Part shown: positions 12,994-32,385 of the stretch, in pieces
Layout of the letters: each line of letters starts with the position of its first letter
How positions within the stretch are numbered: position 1 is the first letter of the stretch
NCBI RefSeq assembly: GCF_001456355.1
Contig: NZ_CP010271.1
Location: 1,860,001-1,924,000, forward strand
Source: Mycobacteroides saopaulense
GTDB lineage: Bacteria > Actinomycetota > Actinomycetes > Mycobacteriales > Mycobacteriaceae
Direction: 5' to 3'
DNA: 64,000 bases
Notes under the pieces: generated by a model
Database searches by the model: none
Told to the model about the DNA's origin: nothing
The model's input: only the letters and a program-made list of their open reading frames with translations
Program-made: the position numbers and the translations under genes

Positions 12994-13647
12994 GCGACAG
13001 TCTTAGCGGTGAATGTGGGGAAGCTGCGGTCTAATCCTGCCGGCGGGCCGGTACCTACCGGGATCGACAAGCGTCCAACCGATCTGGCGATCGCCGTCAG
13101 CGCACCCGTCGGGGGCCTCGGTAGCGGGCTGGCGGGCGACGCCATCGGTGACCACAGCCACCACGGCGGCGACGATCAAGCCGTCTATACCTATGCCCGG
13201 GAAGACCTCGACTGGTGGCAGGGCGAACTTGGGCGGGATCTAGGCAACGGCCAGTTCGGCGAGAACCTCACCACTTGTGATGTCGACGTGACGGGTGCGC
13301 GGATCGGTGAGCGATGGCATATCGGCACCGACGGGCTCGTGCTGGAGGTCTCGTCACCGCGGATACCGTGCCGGACATTCGCGGCTTGGCTTGATCGGCA
13401 GGGCTGGGTGAAAACCTTTACCGTGCAAGCGGTTCCCGGAGCCTATCTGCGTGTGGTCTCGCCCGGGGTGGTCCGACAGGGCGACTCTGTCACCGTCCGC
13501 AACCGTCCAGATCACCAGGTGACGGTAGGGATGGCATTCCGTGCGCTGACTCTTGAGCCCGCGCTGCTTCCCGCGCTGCTCGAAGCCCCTGGATTGTCGG
13601 AGCGCATCAGGGAAACTGTGCGCCGTAGGAGCGGGGTGTTGAAGTAA
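12991..13647 (+). CDS. MOSC domain protein (YiiM type)
   Basis: The 218-residue protein is a stand-alone MOSC domain of the YiiM kind. The segment GDHSHHGGDDQAVYTYAREDLDWW and the following FGENLTTCDVDV and SSPRIPCRTFAAWL, with the conserved Cys, are characteristic. MOSC proteins bind or transfer sulfur or the molybdenum cofactor; YiiM reduces N-hydroxylated compounds using that cofactor. Here the specific reaction is not known. It lies alone, with a 4-base gap to the convergent thioesterase gene. Confidence 0.85.
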   Translation: MATVLAVNVGKLRSNPAGGPVPTGIDKRPTDLAIAVSAPVGGLGSGLAGDAIGDHSHHGGDDQAVYTYAREDLDWWQGELGRDLGNGQFGENLTTCDVDVTGARIGERWHIGTDGLVLEVSSPRIPCRTFAAWLDRQGWVKTFTVQAVPGAYLRVVSPGVVRQGDSVTVRNRPDHQVTVGMAFRALTLEPALLPALLEAPGLSERIRETVRRRSGVLK

Positions 13648-13651
13648 TCCT

Positions 13652-14461
13652 CTACCGCCGTTGGACCAAGACCGTTTGCGCACTGGATCCGATGTAGCCC
13701 AGCCGGTCGAAGATCTCCGCGGTGGTGACCCCGACTCCGTCGGGTCCGACCGACATGCGGGCGCGCACCCCGAACTCGTCGCCCTGAGGAATCCGGTGTA
13801 CGTGCATCACGGTGTCGGTGTTCATGTAGACGAATCGCAGCGGGTTGAGTGTTGCGCCTATCCCGTTGGCGGAGTCGATCACGGACGCCAGGCGTTGCCA
13901 CGGAGTGGTGGGTTCGGTATCGACAATGTGCACGTGTGGCCGCATCCACGCCACCTGCGGTTCCCCGTCTGGTACCGAATACCATTGAAAATCGACGGAT
14001 TTCGAGTAATTGGAACCCTCGAAGCCGAAGGCCGGCGGCGTAGGGCCCCGCGGGTACTCGGGCAGCGGCGGATATCGGTCGCTGGCCTTGTCGGCCGTCA
14101 CCGACGTCGCCAGCAGCCAGGCGCTAGCCCGCGCGACGGAGCGATATCCGCCGTTGGCGTGTGCCTCCATCTCGGCGACGGCGAGCGCGATCCTGCGGCC
14201 GGGACGTTCGATCCACGCCCGTACCCGTACCGGTTCCAGCGGCACCGGCCCGAGGATGTCGAGCGCGACGCGGCCGATCCGCAGGCTTTCGCGTGGCTCG
14301 GGCAGTTCTTCGATGGCCTTGAGTAGCAAGGCCATCGGGGGAGATCCGTGCTGGAGATTCGGTCCCCAGCCGCTGGCGGTCAGTTCGGTGGACTCGAAGA
14401 CCTGGAACTCGCCGTCAGTATCCAGTCGTCGGTAGTAACAGCCCGTCAGGTCCAATGTCAT
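13652..14461 (-). CDS. Acyl-CoA thioesterase-like (hotdog fold) protein
   Basis: The 269-residue protein resembles mycobacterial double-hotdog thioesterases of the TesB/4HBT_3 type: FESTELTASGWGPNLQHGSPPMALLLKAIEEL in the first hotdog, and a second half with PQVAWMRPHVHIVDTEPTTPWQRLASVIDSANGIG. It probably hydrolyses acyl-CoA; chain length cannot be told. Its ATG overlaps the stop of the RecB-like gene by 4 bases (ATGA), so translation is coupled. Confidence 0.75.
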   Translation of the reverse strand: MTLDLTGCYYRRLDTDGEFQVFESTELTASGWGPNLQHGSPPMALLLKAIEELPEPRESLRIGRVALDILGPVPLEPVRVRAWIERPGRRIALAVAEMEAHANGGYRSVARASAWLLATSVTADKASDRYPPLPEYPRGPTPPAFGFEGSNYSKSVDFQWYSVPDGEPQVAWMRPHVHIVDTEPTTPWQRLASVIDSANGIGATLNPLRFVYMNTDTVMHVHRIPQGDEFGVRARMSVGPDGVGVTTAEIFDRLGYIGSSAQTVLVQRR

Positions 14462-15348
14462 GCGGCATCTCCCGGGACGGCGGTCGCGGCGGCTTCGGCG
14501 TCTTCGATATCCGCGTCGGTGACACCGTAGTCGGCGGGCCAGCCCGGGTAGGGGGGTGGTGTGCCGCCGAATGCGGGACATAACGATTGATGGGCGCACC
14601 AATCGCACAACCGGGACGGATTAGGGCGGAAATCGCCGGTGGCGCCGAGGTTTTGAATGGTCCGCCAGATTGCCATGAGCGTCTTCTCGAATTTGAGTAG
14701 CTCGGCCTCATCCGGTGAGTAGTCCAGGACCTCGCCATCGGATAGGTACAGCAGTCGCAGCCGTCGCGGCACCACGCCGCGGGTGCGATACAGCGCGACG
14801 GCGTAGAACTTCATCTGGAATAAGGCCTTGGCCTCGAAGAGGGCGCGAGGTGCGCGGCCGGTCTTGTAATCCACGAGTCGCATCGCGCCCCCGGGGGCTA
14901 TGTCGATGCGGTCGATGAATCCGCGCAGCATCGTGCCATCGGAGAGCTCGACCTCGACGCGCTCTTCGCAGCTGTCGGGGTCGAATCGGGTGGGGTCTTC
15001 CAGACGGTAGTAGCCCGATAGCAGGTCACGTGCCTCGTCGAGGAGCCGTGGAAGGTGCTCGGTCTCGACCACCTCGGCCAGTTCGGGATTGGATTCGACG
15101 AGCCGCTCCCACGCGGGCCGCACCAGCCCCGCCGCGGTGGCGTATTCGCGCTCGATCGCGGGCCGCGCGTACAAATCCTCCAGGGCGGCGTGCACCAGGC
15201 TGCCGCGCACCTGTGCGGTGGACGGCGGCTCGGGGAGCCGGTCGATGGCGCGAAACCGGTACAGCAGCGGGCATTGCTTGAAGTCGCTGGCACGAGAAGG
15301 GGACAGCGCGGGACGGCGCGTCGGCCGCTCCTGCGTGGGTTCCTCCAT
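14458..15348 (-). CDS. RecB-like PD-(D/E)XK nuclease with Fe-S cysteines
   Basis: A stand-alone RecB-family exonuclease domain (296 residues), counterpart of Rv2119 of M. tuberculosis, which also lies near trmI and mpa. Motifs in order: SRASDFKQCPLLYRF with the first Cys, GSLVHAALEDLY (motif I His), FIDRIDIAPGGAMRLVDYKTG containing the catalytic D-x(n)-D-Y-K, a QMKFYAVALYR motif, and a C-terminal CDWCAHQSLC. The four cysteines are placed as in Cas4/AddB proteins that hold a [4Fe-4S] cluster. The ATG at 15348 sits 7 bases after a TAGGCT hexamer, indicating a leaderless message. A repair or processing role is inferred. Confidence 0.85.
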   Translation of the reverse strand: MEEPTQERPTRRPALSPSRASDFKQCPLLYRFRAIDRLPEPPSTAQVRGSLVHAALEDLYARPAIEREYATAAGLVRPAWERLVESNPELAEVVETEHLPRLLDEARDLLSGYYRLEDPTRFDPDSCEERVEVELSDGTMLRGFIDRIDIAPGGAMRLVDYKTGRAPRALFEAKALFQMKFYAVALYRTRGVVPRRLRLLYLSDGEVLDYSPDEAELLKFEKTLMAIWRTIQNLGATGDFRPNPSRLCDWCAHQSLCPAFGGTPPPYPGWPADYGVTDADIEDAEAAATAVPGDAA

Positions 15349-25502: not shown

Positions 25503-25530
25503 TGAACCGATCGGGCGGTCGGATCGTGTA
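25503..25530 (+). promoter_or_regulatory. SigL-type promoter of sigL
   Basis: -35 TGAACC (25503-25508), 16-bp spacer, -10 CGTGTA (25525-25530). This agrees with the SigL consensus recalled for M. tuberculosis (TGAACC...CGTGTR) and predicts autoregulation. An identical element lies before the TPP operon at 26954-26981. Confidence 0.75.
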
Positions 25531-25547
25531 ACCGTCGGAGGTGTTTC

Positions 25548-26087
25548 ATGGCGGATGGGCAGGCGAGGCCTGATGCGCTTCGCGTAAACGGCTCATCAGG
25601 GCTTATGCGGGCCTTTTACGACGAGTACGCGGGCCCGCTGCATCGTTATGTCATGCATCTGACCCATGACTCGGCGCTGGCGGAGGACATCGTGCAGGAG
25701 GTGCTGTTGCGGGCCTGGCGGCATCCGACGCTGGTCAACCAGACCGAAGGGTCCGCCCGCGCGTGGCTGTTCACCGTCGCCCACAATCTGGTTCGCGACA
25801 ACGCACGTAGCTCGCGATTTCGCAGCGAAATAGCCACCGCCGAAACGCCCGAGTTTGCCTCCCCGGATCAGGTCGATGCCACGTTGGATGCGTGGCTGGT
25901 CGCCGAGGCGCTGCGCTCACTGTCCACCGATCATCGGGCAGTCATCCTGCGCGCCTACTACCGCGGGAGTTCGGTCGCCGACATATCCGCTGAGCTGGGG
26001 GTGCCCGAGGGTACCGTCAAGTCACGCCTTCACTACGGTGTGCGCGCACTTCGGTTGTCGCTGCAGGAAATGGGGGTCACGCGATGA
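25548..26087 (+). CDS. sigL: ECF RNA polymerase sigma factor SigL
   Basis: Extracytoplasmic-function sigma factor (179 residues). Region 2 runs FYDEYAGPLHRYVMHLTHDSALAEDIVQEVLLRAWRHP, with RAWLFTVAHNLVRDNARSSRF after it; region 4 is LRSLSTDHRAVILRAYYRGSSVADISAELGVPEGTVKSRLHYGVRALR. The C-terminal sequence and adjacent HCC-type anti-sigma gene match M. tuberculosis SigL/RslA, which respond to redox and control cell-envelope and polyketide genes. The ATG has GGAGG upstream. Its stop overlaps the rslA ATG by 4 bases. In M. tuberculosis sigL lies elsewhere, so its presence in the mpa-dop interval is notable. Confidence 0.9.
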   Translation: MADGQARPDALRVNGSSGLMRAFYDEYAGPLHRYVMHLTHDSALAEDIVQEVLLRAWRHPTLVNQTEGSARAWLFTVAHNLVRDNARSSRFRSEIATAETPEFASPDQVDATLDAWLVAEALRSLSTDHRAVILRAYYRGSSVADISAELGVPEGTVKSRLHYGVRALRLSLQEMGVTR

Positions 26088-26830
26088 CTGTCGAACATGT
26101 TTATGCCGATTGGGACGCCGCCTATGTGCTGGGCGCGTTGTCGTCGACCGAACGGCGTGAATACGAACAACACCTGGTCGACTGCGTGAGCTGCCAGCGC
26201 GCGCTGTCCGAGGTGACCGCGATGCCCGGGCTGCTGTCCAAGGTAGACCGCGACTACGCCGAGAAGATGGAACTCGAGGACCCGCCGGCACTGGCCAAGC
26301 CTGCCACCAGCTGCCCGGTGCAGGCGTTGTGGCCCAAGCTGCAGGCGCGCTGGCGCCGGCAGAGCGCGGTGCGCCGGCTCGCGTATGTGGGTGCGGTCGC
26401 GGTGGCCGCCGCCGTCGCATTGACGGTTTCACTGGTACCGCCGCCGTGGTATCACCGGCCCGCGCCGATGAACGTGGCGGCGGGTTCGCTGCCCTCGGGT
26501 GAACATTGGCAGCCGATGCGTCAGGTGACACCCTCGCCGATGAGTGCGCAGGTGGCACTCGTTCGCGACGGTGCCGGCACCCGTATCGAGATGTGGTGCA
26601 GTTATCCGGCGTACGGAGACGACACCGATGACTCGGCGGCGCCGTACGCGCTGCGAATCGGCACCCGCGCCGGTGGGAACATCATCGCCGGTTCGTGGAC
26701 CGCCAAACCCGGTTCGACGATGATGACGTCGACGACCGTTCCGATGGCTCAGGACCAGATCGAGAGCGTTCAGGTGATCGACAATCACGGCGACGCCACG
26801 CCGCTGGTATTCCTCGAACTACGTCGCTGA
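26084..26830 (+). CDS. rslA: Anti-sigma factor RslA
   Basis: Zinc-associated anti-sigma factor for SigL (248 residues). The N-terminal domain carries HxxxCxxC (H30, C34, C37) in AAYVLGALSSTERREYEQHLVDCVSCQRAL, the redox-sensitive zinc site that releases the sigma factor on oxidation. One membrane helix (about 105-125, GAVAVAAAVALTVSLV) separates it from an extracytoplasmic domain with two further Cys candidates (C85 region, C178). The ATGA overlap with sigL ensures coupled synthesis. About 160 AT-richer bases then lead to the SigL-type promoter of the TPP operon. Confidence 0.88.
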   Translation: MTVEHVYADWDAAYVLGALSSTERREYEQHLVDCVSCQRALSEVTAMPGLLSKVDRDYAEKMELEDPPALAKPATSCPVQALWPKLQARWRRQSAVRRLAYVGAVAVAAAVALTVSLVPPPWYHRPAPMNVAAGSLPSGEHWQPMRQVTPSPMSAQVALVRDGAGTRIEMWCSYPAYGDDTDDSAAPYALRIGTRAGGNIIAGSWTAKPGSTMMTSTTVPMAQDQIESVQVIDNHGDATPLVFLELRR

Positions 26831-26953
26831 GATCCTCCTCCCACACAGGGCGCGTGGGCCTTTGACATGCCCATATTGCGATTACCTGAAACCTGATTCA
26901 TGTTGTGCCATCACATGATTGAGATGACTCGATCACTTTTTCTCGTGGATTGT

Positions 26954-26990
26954 TGAACCCGTCACGTGTGACAGTCGTGTACTAGTCATG
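26954..26990 (+). promoter_or_regulatory. SigL-type leaderless promoter of the TPP operon
   Basis: -35 TGAACC (26954-26959), 16-bp spacer, -10 CGTGTA (26976-26981), exactly matching the sigL promoter. Only 6 bases separate the -10 from the ATG at 26988, so the transcript should start at or next to the start codon (leaderless). The spacer holds a small palindrome GTCAC-GT-GTGAC (26961-26972) that could be an extra operator. Confidence 0.75.
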
Positions 26991-28709
26991 ACCACGCCGA
27001 TATGTGCCGGGAACGGGAACATACGAGTGGTTGACTGGCTCGCCCTTGAGCTGCGTCGCCACGGTGTCGATTTCGTCTTCGGAGTCGACGGTGCCAACAT
27101 CGAGGACCTTTACGATGCCGTGCACTACACACCGGGTATCCAGGCGATCGTCGCCAAACACGAGTTTTCGGCGGGCACCATGGCCGACGGCTATGCGCGC
27201 GCCACCTCGCGGATGAGTGTGGTGGCCACGACCTCGGGCGGTGGCGCCGTCAATCTCGTTCCTGCGCTTGCCGAATCGTATGCAAGCCGGGTGCCGGTGC
27301 TGGCGATCGTGGGCCAGCCACCCCGTCCCTTGGAAGGCAACGGCGCGTTTCAGGATGGAAGCGGACGGGCCGGAAGCATGGACCTCCAGGCGGTCTTCCG
27401 TCCCGTCTCCGGACACTGCGCGCGCGTGGAGCGCCCCGAGGAAATCGCGGAGGCACTCGCGCATGCCCTGGCCGCTATGCGGGATGACCTGCCTGCGGTT
27501 CTCTTGATCCCCAAGGATGTTCAACAGGCGCACCTGACCGCCGTGCCGCCGCTACAGGGTCGGCCCGAACGCCGCCCGGCGGTGCCCGCGCAGCTCGCCG
27601 ACTTCGCGCAGCATCTGGCCGATACGCCCGGCCGGATCTTGGTGGTGGCGGGGCCCGAGGTGGCTCGACACGACGCCCGCGGCGAGCTGTCGGACCTCGT
27701 CGATCGTTTGGATGCCTTTGTCGCGGTATCCCCGGACGCCAAGGACGCCGTGGACGGTGAGGATCCGCGACTGCTGGGCGTCATCGGAGTCATGGGACAT
27801 CCGGCGGTGGAAAAGGTGCTACGCCACGGTGTCACGTGTGTGTGCATCGGAACCACCATGCCGGTGATGACGCGAGGGGGTGTCGACTTTTCCGAGACGC
27901 CGGTCCTGTCCATCGGTTCGGTGACGCCGCATATCGAGTCCCGTCACCTGCAGACCGAGAACCTGGCATCGACTCTGGCCCGGCTTGCCGCCGTCCTGCC
28001 CACGCGCGTGGACGCTCCTGATAGCGAAACACTCTATGCACCAGCTCATCTCGAACCTCCTGCCCATGACGGCGGCGGAGTCCGATACCACGATGGGATG
28101 CATGTTCTGGACAGGGTGATTCCCGACGACGCGGACATCTTCGTGGACGCCGGCAACACCGGAGCCGCCGCTGTGCACTATGTGGGCGCGCGGCGGCGAG
28201 GGCGCTATGTCGTCGCGCTCGGGATGGGCGGCATGGGATATGCCTTCGGCGCCGGCATCGGCTGCGCGTTCGCGCGGGGCGGCCGCACCGTGGTGATCGC
28301 GGGTGACGGCGCATTCTTCATGCATGGCATGGAGATTCATACCGCCATCGAGCACCGGCTACCGGTGACATTCGTCATCGTCAACAACAACGCACACGCC
28401 ATGTGCGTCACCCGTGAACAGCTCTACTACGGGGGAAACTACAGCTTCAACCGCTTCGCGCTCTCGCATATCGCGTCCGGCCTCGGTGCGATGTTTCCTG
28501 GTCTGATGTGCCATTCGGCCGAAACCGTGGCCGATTTCGAGGCCGCCATGCACGACGCGATGGCTCACAGCGGCCCCGCCGTGGTGGAGGTCATCTGCTC
28601 CACAGACGAGATACCACCGTTCGCCCCGTTCCTGTCATCCGAGATCGCTAAGGAGAAAACGCATGACCGACACGATTTCCGAAACCACCAAAGCCTTGCC
28701 CGCGCTTAG
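26988..28709 (+). CDS. Thiamine diphosphate-dependent enzyme (acetolactate synthase-like)
   Basis: The 573-residue protein has the three-domain ThDP decarboxylase/carboligase fold. The cofactor-activating Glu59 is in KHEFSAGTMADGYARATS; the central domain spans about residues 190-330; the ThDP/Mg motif is GDG (439-441) followed by NNN (466-468). Relatives include acetolactate synthase and benzoylformate decarboxylase; the pocket gives no clear substrate. It probably decarboxylates a 2-oxo acid and may transfer the resulting acyl anion. The start ATG sits at a SigL-type promoter without a ribosome site. Its 3' end overlaps the next gene by 47 bases, unusually long, so the last 15 residues share DNA with the following N-terminus. 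Confidence 0.85.
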   Translation: MTTPICAGNGNIRVVDWLALELRRHGVDFVFGVDGANIEDLYDAVHYTPGIQAIVAKHEFSAGTMADGYARATSRMSVVATTSGGGAVNLVPALAESYASRVPVLAIVGQPPRPLEGNGAFQDGSGRAGSMDLQAVFRPVSGHCARVERPEEIAEALAHALAAMRDDLPAVLLIPKDVQQAHLTAVPPLQGRPERRPAVPAQLADFAQHLADTPGRILVVAGPEVARHDARGELSDLVDRLDAFVAVSPDAKDAVDGEDPRLLGVIGVMGHPAVEKVLRHGVTCVCIGTTMPVMTRGGVDFSETPVLSIGSVTPHIESRHLQTENLASTLARLAAVLPTRVDAPDSETLYAPAHLEPPAHDGGGVRYHDGMHVLDRVIPDDADIFVDAGNTGAAAVHYVGARRRGRYVVALGMGGMGYAFGAGIGCAFARGGRTVVIAGDGAFFMHGMEIHTAIEHRLPVTFVIVNNNAHAMCVTREQLYYGGNYSFNRFALSHIASGLGAMFPGLMCHSAETVADFEAAMHDAMAHSGPAVVEVICSTDEIPPFAPFLSSEIAKEKTHDRHDFRNHQSLARA

Positions 28710-29355
28710 CGATATCGCCGCGGACGCCGGCACCGAGGATGCGCTTCCCGGAGTGCACCGTATCGAGACCTCACCCCGTGAGAAGGCGACGCCGATCATC
28801 ATGGACATGATGCGGTCGGTGTACCCGCACGATCAGGTGTTCGGGCCGTTCTGCACCGTTCAGGAGTATGTGGACTGCCCGCCCGATGAATTGCATCGCT
28901 ATCTGTCGGACACCCGCTGCCTGGAGGAATGGACGTACAGTCTGCGTGGCTTCGAGGAGACCGATGAGCCCGGCCTGTGGGTTGCCCACGACCGCTTGGG
29001 ATCTGACACGCTGATCTATACCCGGACAGAATCGAACGCCGAATCCGGGACCGTGGACTACCACTGTGCCTGGGATCAGGGCGATCACCTGTGGATGATC
29101 TACCTCATGCGAGTGGTCGATGCGCAAGTGGTGCTCAACAAGCCGGGCTCGGTTGTGCTGTGGACCAATTGCCATCACCCGTTCTATGACGAGAATCCCT
29201 ATCCGGAAACCGCTCCACCGCAACGTAAACCGTGGGTCGGGGACTTCTGGGACATGTTTGGTGCGGGCCACCTGTTGGAGCTGCTGAACCTGAAGGCCAT
29301 TGCTGAATATCGACACAGCCACGGGCTGCCGATTGTTCCGGAGTGGATGAAATGA
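28663..29355 (+). CDS. Putative SRPBCC/START-like protein of the TPP operon
   Basis: The 230-residue soluble protein has a disordered N-terminus and a core (about residues 55-190) with alternating strands and a long C-terminal helix: VQEYVDCPPDELHRYLSDTRCLEEWTYSLRGFE, GTVDYHCAWDQGDHLWMIYLMRVVDAQVVLNKPG. This resembles the helix-grip (SRPBCC) fold of polyketide cyclases and lipid-binding proteins, but the assignment is tentative. Tyr and Trp are frequent (Y-x-W clusters), which fits a hydrophobic ligand cavity. AAGGAGA precedes the ATG; the stop overlaps the KAS III start (ATGA). Its place between the TPP enzyme and KAS III implies work on the same intermediate. Confidence 0.5.
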   Translation: MTDTISETTKALPALSDIAADAGTEDALPGVHRIETSPREKATPIIMDMMRSVYPHDQVFGPFCTVQEYVDCPPDELHRYLSDTRCLEEWTYSLRGFEETDEPGLWVAHDRLGSDTLIYTRTESNAESGTVDYHCAWDQGDHLWMIYLMRVVDAQVVLNKPGSVVLWTNCHHPFYDENPYPETAPPQRKPWVGDFWDMFGAGHLLELLNLKAIAEYRHSHGLPIVPEWMK

Positions 29356-30365
29356 CCGTCAGCATCTTCGACATCTCCAGCTATCTTCCCGAGAACCGGG
29401 TCAGTGCTGACTACTTCGCGCAGTACGCGAAGGACGACGATCTGGCCGAGAACGTCATGTTCCGTAGTCCGGCCTATCGGCATCACATCGCGGCCGACGA
29501 GACGGCGGTCGACATGGCCGAGCGCGCAGTGGCTGGTCTGCGGGAGCGCCACGGACAGGCCGTGCTCGACGAGGTCGACATTCTGCTGACCCACACCCAG
29601 CTGCCGGACCTGCCGTTCGTGGGCTGCGGTGGGGAGGTCGCCAACCGGTTGCAGATCCGACCTGAGTGGATCCTGGATGTGCACAACGGTGGCTGCGTGT
29701 CGTTCGTGCTGATGCTCAAACTTGCTCAGCAGATGATGGCCTCGTCGAGTGCGCGCTCCGCACTGATCGTGAACATGCAGAACGCGGCGGGACAGATCTT
29801 CGTACAGGAGCAGGTGCGGTCCACCGCACAGGCGTCGATACCGGGAGACGGTGCTACCGCGGCGTTGATCACCCGTGACGGAGGTTCGCCGGTCTTGGGC
29901 ATCGAGACGCGCAATTTCGGTGAGTATGCCGGTGACATGACCTACGCGGTGACGCCTCATCGCAAGTATTGGGAGGCCGGATCCGGGCAGGGGCGGGTGG
30001 CCTTCACCGAGCACAAGATCAGCAAGGTGCTGGCCCGCGGTAACCGGATGGTGCCGGAAGTGGCGCTCGCCGTGTGCGATCGGATCGGGGTTGCTTCGAC
30101 GGACCTGGACGCATTGGTGACCAATCAGCCCAACCGGATCTTCCTGCGGAACTGGCGCGATGCCCTGCAGCTGCCCAAGGAGAAGCATCCGGACACGTTT
30201 GACGAATGCGGAAACCTGTTCGGGGTGGGCATTCCGCACACGCTCGACCAGGCGATCTCCGAGGGGCAGGTTCGGACCGGCGACACCGTGATGCTGGCGG
30301 GATTCGCCCATGCCGGTGACTATGCGGCTGCGGCCGCGGTGCGATGGGGAGGGAGGGGTCAGTGA
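29352..30365 (+). CDS. KAS III-like acyltransferase with altered triad
   Basis: Thiolase-fold protein of the FabH (beta-ketoacyl-ACP synthase III) class, 337 residues. The nucleophile Cys115 is in VHNGGCVSF and the Asn of the triad is N288 in ECGNLFGVGIP. The catalytic His of the usual HQAN motif is replaced: the aligned segment is LVTNQPNRIF, giving Asn258. Loss of that His is known from KAS III relatives that transfer acyl groups to O or N rather than condense with malonyl-ACP, so housekeeping fatty acid initiation is unlikely. It overlaps its neighbours by 4 bases on each side and is therefore the third gene of a tight operon. Confidence 0.82.
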   Translation: MTVSIFDISSYLPENRVSADYFAQYAKDDDLAENVMFRSPAYRHHIAADETAVDMAERAVAGLRERHGQAVLDEVDILLTHTQLPDLPFVGCGGEVANRLQIRPEWILDVHNGGCVSFVLMLKLAQQMMASSSARSALIVNMQNAAGQIFVQEQVRSTAQASIPGDGATAALITRDGGSPVLGIETRNFGEYAGDMTYAVTPHRKYWEAGSGQGRVAFTEHKISKVLARGNRMVPEVALAVCDRIGVASTDLDALVTNQPNRIFLRNWRDALQLPKEKHPDTFDECGNLFGVGIPHTLDQAISEGQVRTGDTVMLAGFAHAGDYAAAAAVRWGGRGQ

Positions 30366-31402
30366 CGGTGAGTCCGCTCCGACTGGCATTGAACGAAAAT
30401 CCCTATCGTCCATTGCCGTCGGTGCGCGATGCGCTCAGGCACGACATCGCGGAGGTGAATCGATATCCCGAGTTTCTGCCCGTCGTGCTGCCGCGATTGA
30501 TCGCCGAGCGAGTGGGCATGACACCCGAGGAGGTGGTGGTGGGAGTCGGGGCCACCGGGGTCGCGTTGCAGGTGCTGCAGGCCCTGTGCAGGCCCGGTGA
30601 TTCGTTGGTCTTCGCACATCCGACCTTTGACGGGTACCCGATACTGGCCGACATAGCCGGGCTGATTCAGGTTCCTATTCCACTGGCGGACAACGGTATG
30701 ACCGATCTCGATGAGCTATTGGGTGCGGCATACGACGCCGATGCGGCCGCCGTGGTGCTATGCCGACCGCATAATCCGACCGGAACGCTGATACCGGCCG
30801 AGCAGGTTTACGGGTTTGTCCGTCAAGCGCCGCCGACCAGCGTGGTCATCCTCGACGAGGCCTACATCGAATTCGTGGATCCCGATGCTCACCTGGACAT
30901 ACCGCGCTTGATCGCGACGCATCCCAACCTGGTTGTGTTGCGTACCTTTTCGAAGGCATACGGCTTGGCCGGGTTGCGGATCGGCTATGGATTGGCCGCT
31001 CCCGCGGTGTGCGGCGTGATCCGTCGCTATCAGCTCCCGTTCGGCATGAACCGGGCTGCGGCGGTCGCGGTGGCGGCGTCCTACGCGGCCGAGGACGAGC
31101 TGCGGCTCCGGGTCGATTCGATTGTCTACGAACGTGATCAGCTCCGGAAACGGCTCGCCCAGATGGGTGCACACATCCCGCAATCGCACGCCAATTTCGT
31201 GTATCTGCCGGCGCGCGGCGATGGTGCGCCGTGGATGTCGCTGCTGGGAACGGGTGACGTTGTCGCCAAGGAGTATCCAGACGGCGGTGTCAGGCTCACG
31301 GTCGGCGATCCGCGCGAGATGGCCATCGTCGCACGGCGGCTGCTGGAGGTAGATGAACTCGGTGATGGCACAGCACCTCAGTTGAGTAGGCCTGCTTCAT
31401 AG
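30362..31402 (+). CDS. HisC-like PLP aminotransferase
   Basis: Fold-type I, class II aminotransferase (346 residues) like histidinol-phosphate or aromatic aminotransferases. Motifs: N-terminal LALNENPYRPLPSV, RPHNPTGTLIP, DEAYIEF, and the PLP lysine in TFSKAYGLAGLRIGYG. No his biosynthesis gene is nearby, so this is a specialised paralogue serving the operon, presumably adding an amino group to the ketone made upstream or preparing a 2-oxo acid for the TPP enzyme. The GTG at 30362 overlaps the KAS III stop (GTGA). A nested inverted repeat follows. Confidence 0.85.
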   Translation: MTVSPLRLALNENPYRPLPSVRDALRHDIAEVNRYPEFLPVVLPRLIAERVGMTPEEVVVGVGATGVALQVLQALCRPGDSLVFAHPTFDGYPILADIAGLIQVPIPLADNGMTDLDELLGAAYDADAAAVVLCRPHNPTGTLIPAEQVYGFVRQAPPTSVVILDEAYIEFVDPDAHLDIPRLIATHPNLVVLRTFSKAYGLAGLRIGYGLAAPAVCGVIRRYQLPFGMNRAAAVAVAASYAAEDELRLRVDSIVYERDQLRKRLAQMGAHIPQSHANFVYLPARGDGAPWMSLLGTGDVVAKEYPDGGVRLTVGDPREMAIVARRLLEVDELGDGTAPQLSRPAS

Positions 31403-31480: not shown

Positions 31481-32305
31481 TCAGAACGCGTAGCGGTGAT
31501 ACTGCGCCATGTATCGAAGCGTCGGCGACAGCGACATCGCCTTGGCCAGTAGCCGATACGCCATCTTGGTTCGTTGGAAGGTCTCCGAATCGAACGGCGA
31601 CTCCCACTCCAGTAGCTGCAGCTTGGGGATGGCGTGGATGAGGTCTTCGGGGCGGTCGATTCCCCAGTACAGCGTCGCTCCCGAGCGCCGCACCACGGCA
31701 TTCGACCATTGTGTCTTGATGCCGAACCGGTTGAACGCATCGAATTGCAGTTCCCCGTAGGGGAAGTGATCGACGATCCGGCGAAACAGTGCAATGCCGT
31801 CCTGCTCCTTGAGGTACATCGTCAACCCCTCGCCGATGGCCAATACCGGACGGCCGCCGGGAATGTTCGCGAGCCATCCGGGATCGATCACCGACGCCGA
31901 AACGACGCGGTAATGATCACGCGTTGGATAGAGCTGGTTACGCAGCGTGGCCACCTCGGGGTAATCGACGTCGTACCACTCGATCCCGGGGCCGGGATTC
32001 AGCCGGAAGTATCTGCCGTCGAGACCGCAACCCAGATGCAGTACGACCGCCTCGGCATGCCTGGACAGGAAGACGCGGGCCCAGTTGTCGAAATGCGCCG
32101 AGCGTGTGGTGACGGCGGGGGAGCGGCCGGCGGTGATGGTCGTCTTGGACCAGTCGTAGTCGATGCGGTCGGCGATATCACGGGCCAGCCGGTCTCCGAG
32201 GATCGGTGTGGGCAGATCGGCGTCGAGCGCCTTGGCGTAGAACGTCGCCAGCATGGTCTGCGGGGCTCCGCTGAGATCGACATGAATCTTCTCTGGGTAG
32301 CTCAT
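31481..32305 (-). CDS. Class I SAM-dependent methyltransferase (LCM/TcmP type)
   Basis: The 274-residue protein belongs to the leucine carboxyl methyltransferase-like group that includes TcmP of polyketide pathways and many mycobacterial paralogues. Motif I is VVLHLGCGLDGRYFRL, with WYDVDYPEVATLRNQLYP and VLAIGEGLTMYL following; the last carries the conserved E-G-L of the family. It likely methylates a carboxyl or hydroxyl group of a small molecule. The ATG at 32305 starts the conserved SYPEKIHVDLSG. It is transcribed towards the TPP operon, so it may tailor that product, but co-regulation is not shown. Confidence 0.82.
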   Translation of the reverse strand: MSYPEKIHVDLSGAPQTMLATFYAKALDADLPTPILGDRLARDIADRIDYDWSKTTITAGRSPAVTTRSAHFDNWARVFLSRHAEAVVLHLGCGLDGRYFRLNPGPGIEWYDVDYPEVATLRNQLYPTRDHYRVVSASVIDPGWLANIPGGRPVLAIGEGLTMYLKEQDGIALFRRIVDHFPYGELQFDAFNRFGIKTQWSNAVVRRSGATLYWGIDRPEDLIHAIPKLQLLEWESPFDSETFQRTKMAYRLLAKAMSLSPTLRYMAQYHRYAF

Positions 32306-32385
32306 GAAACCCGACGCTAACGCGGATTTTGAGGCGCGCAGAGCACTCTGAACAGTCCCCGGCGTGGTGTTCAGCCCCGCCTCTC

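Follow-up and report, generated by a model that had tools for sequence, protein, structure and literature searches.

A predicted SigL-controlled operon for an indole-derived, carbazole-type compound in Mycobacteroides saopaulense and its relatives

In the single-contig, 4.65-Mb genome of Mycobacteroides saopaulense, the genes of the extracytoplasmic function (ECF) sigma factor SigL and of its zinc anti-sigma factor RslA are followed by four enzyme genes. We analyzed the window, a stretch of 64,000 nucleotides (positions 1860001-1924000), and sequence comparison indicates that these four genes probably form a SigL-controlled pathway to an indole-derived carbazole-type compound. A sequence-only reading of this DNA had proposed a dedicated small-molecule pathway making an amino-ketone or a related compound; the dedicated pathway was retained and the amino-ketone was replaced by an indole-derived tricycle. 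The same reading knew of no described product for the gene set. This part could not be upheld, since one of the genes encodes a CqsB2-type synthase and the pathway to the carbazole core uses the same four activities (CqsB1, CqsB2, CqsB3, and CqsB7), according to the consulted part of a review (PMC7466098). It had also been said in advance that orthologues already assigned to a known pathway would speak against the proposal, and the carbazole core is such a pathway. The operon points to an alkaloid class, the carbazoles, for which the openly accessible literature that we searched gave no report from a mycobacterium.

The assignment starts from the second gene of the operon (28663..29355; all genes of the operon are on the forward strand), a CqsB2-type carbazole synthase by homology and fold. 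This SRPBCC protein is 37-46% identical to CqsB2 (PDB 6ipv) over the aligned part and has the same fold. The catalytic CqsB2 residues Tyr144, Tyr172, His206, and Glu209 correspond to Tyr147, Tyr175, His203, and Glu206 of the window protein and are kept in 139/139 homologues. It is also the most conserved of the four proteins outside the window's group, at about 74-81% identity (about 50% for the first enzyme of the operon and about 60% for the third).

The other three enzymes belong to the families that the carbazole core calls for. The thiamine diphosphate (ThDP)-dependent carboligase (26988..28709), with a putative CqsB3/NzsH-type role, has the Pfam TPP_enzyme N, M, and C domains; its best match of solved structure is BbmA (8x3x, E 2.5e-56), and the Glu of the KHE motif and the GDG motif are invariant (120/120). 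Pfam and motifs place it in the ThDP family, and the joining of indole-3-pyruvate and pyruvate is its predicted reaction. The enzyme resembling beta-ketoacyl-acyl carrier protein synthase III (KAS III; 29343..30365, probable ATG start 29352), with a putative CqsB1/NzsJ-type role, matches Pfam ACP_syn_III and ACP_syn_III_C, retains the Cys, and is 59% identical to the product of a gene that adjoins the SRPBCC gene of a genome of the same class (G931). The HisC/Pat-type aminotransferase (30344..31402, probable GTG start 30362), to which we give a CqsB7-type role, is of class I/II by Pfam (Aminotran_1_2) and keeps the Lys motif for pyridoxal phosphate in 110/110 sequences; tryptophan is its predicted substrate. 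The four enzyme open reading frames (ORFs) after rslA are present as the earlier reading had them. The overlaps of 47, 4, and 4 bases that it gave hold with the ATG at 29352 and the GTG at 30362; the longest ORFs of the last two genes begin at 29343 and 30344, which gives overlaps of 13 and 22 bases.

The closest described counterpart is the carquinostatin A cluster of Streptomyces exfoliatus. It shares with the window operon the synthase fold, four of the five residues named as catalytic, and the adjoining ThDP enzyme, KAS III-like enzyme, and aminotransferase. Unlike that cluster, the window operon has four genes only, lacks the CqsB5, CqsB6 pair and the prenyltransferase CqsB4, carries Asp in place of Glu105, and has a SigL promoter. 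The neocarazostatin A (nzs) and chlocarbazomycin (chlCz) pathways of Streptomyces are similar in the core nzsH, nzsI, and nzsJ and in the aminotransferase chlCz1, a likeness by description and not by sequence. Those pathways have genes for an acyl carrier protein (ACP), an oxidase, a prenyltransferase, or a halogenase, some of them outside the cluster, and the window operon has none of these.

We propose the following course, in which homology, fold, active sites, gene order, and promoter conservation were observed and the substrates, the product, and an antioxidant role are what we infer from them. Redox or envelope stress would free SigL from RslA, as the part consulted of the published RslA work suggests (PMC2877774), and the freed SigL would transcribe its own operon and the biosynthetic one from identical boxes, TGAACC-N16-CGTGTA. 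The aminotransferase would convert L-tryptophan to indole-3-pyruvate, which the ThDP enzyme is predicted to join to pyruvate. The KAS III-like enzyme would then carry out a decarboxylative condensation of this intermediate with an acyl thioester, probably a beta-hydroxyacyl-ACP or -coenzyme A (CoA) drawn from fatty-acid metabolism, because the operon has no ACP or second KAS III. The CqsB2-type protein would close and aromatize the third ring.

The regulators are what the sequence-only reading had taken them to be. SigL (25548..26087, +) scores 226.5 bits with NCBIfam PRK09645 (cut-off 202) and matches the M. tuberculosis SigL structure 6dv9 (E 5.1e-59); it is the sole SigL-like protein of the genome, the seven other matches being 27-37% identical. 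RslA (26084..26830, +) matches 3hug_B (E 2.6e-16) and Pfam zf-HC2, and its HxxxCxxC motif is present in 65/65 homologues kept for the count. Family scores, structure matches, the tree, and the motif agree on a SigL orthologue with its zinc anti-sigma partner, orthologous to Rv0735-Rv0736 of M. tuberculosis.

The promoter of sigL-rslA (25503..25530, +) and that of the biosynthetic operon (26954..26981, +) are exact matches to TGAACC-N16-CGTGTA, which we take to be the published SigL consensus. The distance to the start codon is 17 bases for sigL and 6 bases for the ThDP gene, and an operon transcript that starts 6-7 bases past its promoter may be leaderless. The two elements had been called identical; this is true of the boxes and of the 16-base spacing, but the spacer sequences differ. 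The exact motif occurs three times in the genome, against zero for the reversed control, and the third match lies inside a 564-codon ORF on the other strand. The looser GAACC-N16-CGTRT occurs at 13 genomic sites against 7 for the control, which shows that the looser boxes alone are not specific. A genome-wide SigL regulon drawn from the looser motif was therefore rejected, many of the sites being intragenic. Among the looser sites beyond sigL and the operon, only one, before another ECF gene, looked plausible (GAACC-N16-CGTGT, C1:4409945-4409970, +, slightly upstream of the gene); it possibly reflects a cascade or self-control by that other sigma factor.

The same promoter was found before both transcription units across many loci. 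These include many close relatives and some places twice, so that all counts are of loci and not of independent events. A scan for the boxes GAAC[CT] and CG[TA]NT at spacers of 15-17 placed the motif before the ThDP gene in 27/37 loci and before sigL in 27/29, compared with 1/37 and 0/29 for the reverse-complement controls and none in either set for the reversed control. In a larger set, it stands before the ThDP gene in 34/56 loci, with a spacer of 16 in 34/34, and before sigL in 28/33, with a spacer of 16 in 27/28. The ThDP-gene ATG follows the hexamer by exactly 6 bases in 14 of the 34 motif loci, 10 of which are the window and close relatives. In the named-genome set, the motif precedes the operon in 45/79 loci. 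As a background control, the strict motif was compared at different spacer lengths over 155 operon-centered, partly redundant loci. It was found 142 times at spacer 16 and 1, 5, 1, 3, 2, 2, 0, and 0 times at spacers 12, 13, 14, 15, 17, 18, 19, and 20. Of these 142 sites, 71 are before the ThDP gene, 48 before sigL, 3 before rslA, and 2 before a lone SRPBCC gene; the other 18 include sites before FAD monooxygenase genes and an MMPL transporter gene, which look like tailoring and export genes. One promoter type at a fixed spacing thus stands before both sigL and its putative target.

Co-occurrence and published expression data point the same way. In the Mycobacterium genus sample, a SigL-like gene (E up to 1e-40) is present in 261/267 genomes with a CqsB2-like gene and in 73/129 without, figures uncorrected for relatedness and completeness. 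In M. avium subsp. paratuberculosis treated with a rhodanine drug, sigL, rslA, and MAP4208-MAP4211 are induced along with homologues of established SigL targets (PMC2806251, as far as consulted). There the four genes are annotated ilvB, "transcriptional regulator," fabH, and pat. The carbazole pathway is not named in the consulted parts of the M. avium subsp. paratuberculosis expression papers (PMC2806251 and PMC4319475), and published expression tables that list the apparent operon genes as ilvB, hypothetical, fabH, and pat can now be re-read. This co-induction with sigL is a correlation. Taken with the rigid 16-base spacer across many species, it supports the earlier proposal that SigL switches on the adjoining operon.

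Several observations weigh against this picture. CqsB2 Glu105, a proposed helper in the abstraction of the C4 proton according to the consulted part of PMC7466098, is Asp110 in the window and Asp in 138/139 homologues; the change is conservative and the role of the residue is only proposed. The catalytic His of FabH is replaced by Asn in the KAS III-like enzyme (134/134). The CqsB1-, CqsB3-, and CqsB7-type roles are putative assignments by family and gene order alone. A dedicated KAS III and ACP of the carquinostatin type (CqsB5, CqsB6) are absent from the operon, whose four overlapping genes leave no room for them (the flanks were not scanned for ACP). Their absence does not rule out the core pathway, because 3-hydroxybutyryl-CoA (3-HB-CoA) also serves as a donor in carbazole synthesis (PMC7466098, in the part consulted). 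As for the regulation, the motif is missing from 22/56 ThDP loci in one set and 34/79 in another, and a SigL-type motif precedes the operon in 0/8 Tsukamurella and 0/10 Gordonia loci. MAP4208-MAP4211 were matched to the operon genes only through their order and annotation, and deletion of furA lowers the same four genes 6.7- to 10-fold, according to the consulted part of PMC4319475.

These points leave room for other readings. The same chemistry under the same SigL control could act on phenylpyruvate or 4-hydroxyphenylpyruvate, giving a quinol or quinone of the naphthalene type. In its favor, the PDB entry nearest to the aminotransferase is that of a putative phenylalanine aminotransferase (4r2n, E 2.8e-58), the carbazole role of the ThDP enzyme is assigned by family and gene order, and the modest identity of the cyclase to CqsB2 and its Asp for Glu105 also fit. 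We regard this as unlikely, since four of the five named CqsB2 catalytic residues are invariant, Tsukamurella pseudospumae, a species known to produce carbazoles, shares both the core and its active-site letters, and the chlocarbazomycin aminotransferase chlCz1 is likewise histidinol-phosphate-transaminase-like in the available part of its description (PMC10100901). KAS III-like proteins have many uses, and Clostridium relatives of NzsH form the acyloin core of the sattazolins (PMC9822442, consulted in part). The KAS III-like and ThDP enzymes might therefore make an open-chain acyloin or alpha-hydroxyketone signal that the SRPBCC protein only binds or protects. The strong conservation of the SRPBCC protein, catalytic residues included, makes this improbable.

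Another sigma factor might read the boxes, or the operon might be constitutive, its place beside sigL being a matter of history. GAAC-type boxes are common to several ECF factors, one precedes another ECF gene of the same genome, the looser motif is not specific in this genome (13 sites against 7 for its control), and the furA effect means that other inputs exist. The 16-base spacer in all 34 operon promoters of the larger set, the same boxes before sigL, the co-occurrence with SigL, and the published co-induction render such an account most improbable. The automatic names ilvB, fabH, and hisC/pat would suggest a branched-chain or histidine module of primary metabolism, and acetolactate synthase and histidinol-phosphate transaminase models are among the best NCBIfam scores. 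All NCBIfam scores shown for these three enzymes are below the curated cut-offs, elsewhere in the genome lie a canonical FabH (999579-1000532, the sole KAS III match besides that of the operon) and nine further matches to the window aminotransferase, and many relatives lack the CqsB2-like gene or have it broken. The acetolactate synthase, FabH, and HisC identities were rejected on the cut-offs and paralogues, and a primary-metabolism module is hardly credible.

The carbazole-type operon is widespread in the genus of the window (Mycobacterium as GTDB defines it), about two thirds of the sampled genomes having it. A CqsB2-like gene was found in 267/396 Mycobacterium-genus genomes (255/361 good ones; a few are fragments), in 41/397 genomes and 9/85 genera of the order sample, and in 14/396 genomes and 4/236 genera of the phylum sample; the window's own genome is counted in all three. 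It is also present in Nocardia, Gordonia, and Tsukamurella. Among the best 80 of 512 named relatives, Tsukamurella comes first (8, including T. pseudospumae), followed by Gordonia, Mycobacterium, Nocardia, Skermania, and others. Of these 80 loci, 79 have the ThDP gene with the SRPBCC gene, and 70 have, after the KAS gene, a relative of the window aminotransferase. Both sigL and rslA are present in 37 of the 80 and rslA alone in one more.

The consulted part of PMC7466098 describes lipocarbazoles from T. pseudospumae Acta 1857 as 3-oxygenated carbazoles with reported antioxidative activity, names no gene cluster for them, and notes that the machinery behind mono-oxygenated carbazoles is yet to be found. 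The sequenced strain, T. pseudospumae JCM 13375, is not the producer; it carries the ThDP, SRPBCC, and KAS core genes in the order seen in the window, and its SRPBCC protein shares the Asp variant and the active-site letters of the window protein. In its 16.6-kb locus, we found no sigL or rslA relative, no relative of the window aminotransferase, and no SigL-type motif ahead of the operon. The carbazole reading provides gene candidates for the Tsukamurella lipocarbazoles, and the Tsukamurella core suggests a lipid-tailed antioxidant product. Asp at the site with a proposed role at C4 is, as a guess, a candidate for the mono-oxygenating machinery. A wider scenario is possible, if doubtful: an old "Asp-type" branch of carbazole synthases in mycobacteria, Nocardia, and Tsukamurella would make lipid-tailed, mono-oxygenated, lipocarbazole-like scavengers with a tail from fatty-acid synthesis. 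The redox switch SigL-RslA would have grown up with the operon in Mycobacterium and Nocardia, RslA oxidation calling forth an antioxidant. The change from Glu105 to Asp would be the switch from di- to mono-oxygenation, and loss of the operon, probably as in M. tuberculosis, would leave SigL parted from its first target. The CqsB2-like gene of G931 (family f18) also has Asp at this position, which shows that the variant is not confined to Mycobacteriales and weakens the mono-oxygenation guess.

The structure of M. tuberculosis SigL is solved and some of its targets are known, but to our knowledge it has no clear purpose. Gene order offers a clue. In four loci (L034, L037, L043, and L195), secY and then map precede sigL and rslA, and the operon and then a MarR gene follow. 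In the window and its nine close relatives, the block as a whole is flanked instead by ORFs that are presumably mpa and dop; we suppose that the block moved to this site in the window's group. Fourteen genomes with SigL and no CqsB2-like match were examined. A MarR gene follows rslA by 0.06-1.8 kb in 13 of them (in L208 it follows sigL, rslA being undetected). Four of these 13 (L197, L200, L203, and L207) retain parts of the ThDP, KAS, or aminotransferase genes in the gap, and no MarR relative was found in the remaining genome (L206). In four genomes of 3.1-3.3 Mb (G098, G138, G352, and G112), a size like that of the reduced genomes of leprosy bacilli, the CqsB2-like gene is present in broken pieces only, adjoined in G098 and G138 by pieces of other operon genes. 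By these comparisons, some mycobacteria have lost the operon genes and kept only the SigL-RslA switch.

M. tuberculosis itself was not in our genome sample (best match to its SigL, 93% identity) and the absence of the operon there is taken from print. The consulted part of PMC13002591 places rv0737 immediately downstream of sigL-rslA, the same emptied site as in the operon-less genomes, and M. tuberculosis SigL therefore probably outlived the operon as a target. The targets named for it in the literature consulted in part are pks7/pks10, Rv1138c-Rv1139c, and others, the window-type operon not being among them. M. tuberculosis SigL falls among SigLs of other mycobacteria in the tree. The fork that holds it has four members and weak support (80/80); of the other three SigLs, two adjoin the operon (L051 and L195) and one adjoins an emptied site (L196). 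This comparative evidence suggests that M. tuberculosis sigL once adjoined a carbazole-type pathway and had the same type of promoter, and the purpose of SigL becomes testable in other mycobacterial species that hold the operon, such as the environmental M. sphagni (L154, L166).

Around the operon of the window, a gene of a SAM-dependent methyltransferase of the LCM family (31481-32314, -) converges on it. Among the nine close relatives it is whole at the same place in seven (79-90% identity), in pieces in L025, and was not found in L032. A weak terminator-like hairpin (26916..26935, +) lies in the gap between rslA and the operon promoter, in a scan that found 3 against 3.0 expected in shuffles.

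Other arrangements were seen elsewhere. In seven loci (L035, L036, L040, L041, L047, L052, and L061), the operon is flanked by varied MMPL transporter, O-methyltransferase (PF00891), and cytochrome P450 genes, and the SigL motif precedes the ThDP gene in none of the seven; these copies are possibly a second, tailored version of the cluster. In L038, L046, L049, and L050, the CqsB2-like gene stands alone: the 20 kb examined contain no relative of the ThDP or KAS genes, and ABC/FtsX transporter or FAD monooxygenase genes lie nearby. A SigL-type motif precedes the L038 and L046 copies. Upstream of sigL in L039 is a gene (13309-14934, -) for a 541-residue protein that joins an N-terminal motif of the zinc anti-sigma type (zf-HC2, E 5e-7) to an RPE65-type carotenoid oxygenase (E 2e-109). 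Its gene cluster also occurs in L042, L054, L055, L056, and L062 (domains scanned in the L039 copy only). A second ECF-like ORF precedes the zf-HC2/RPE65-type gene, and a strict SigL-type motif stands in front in L039, L042, L054, and L055.

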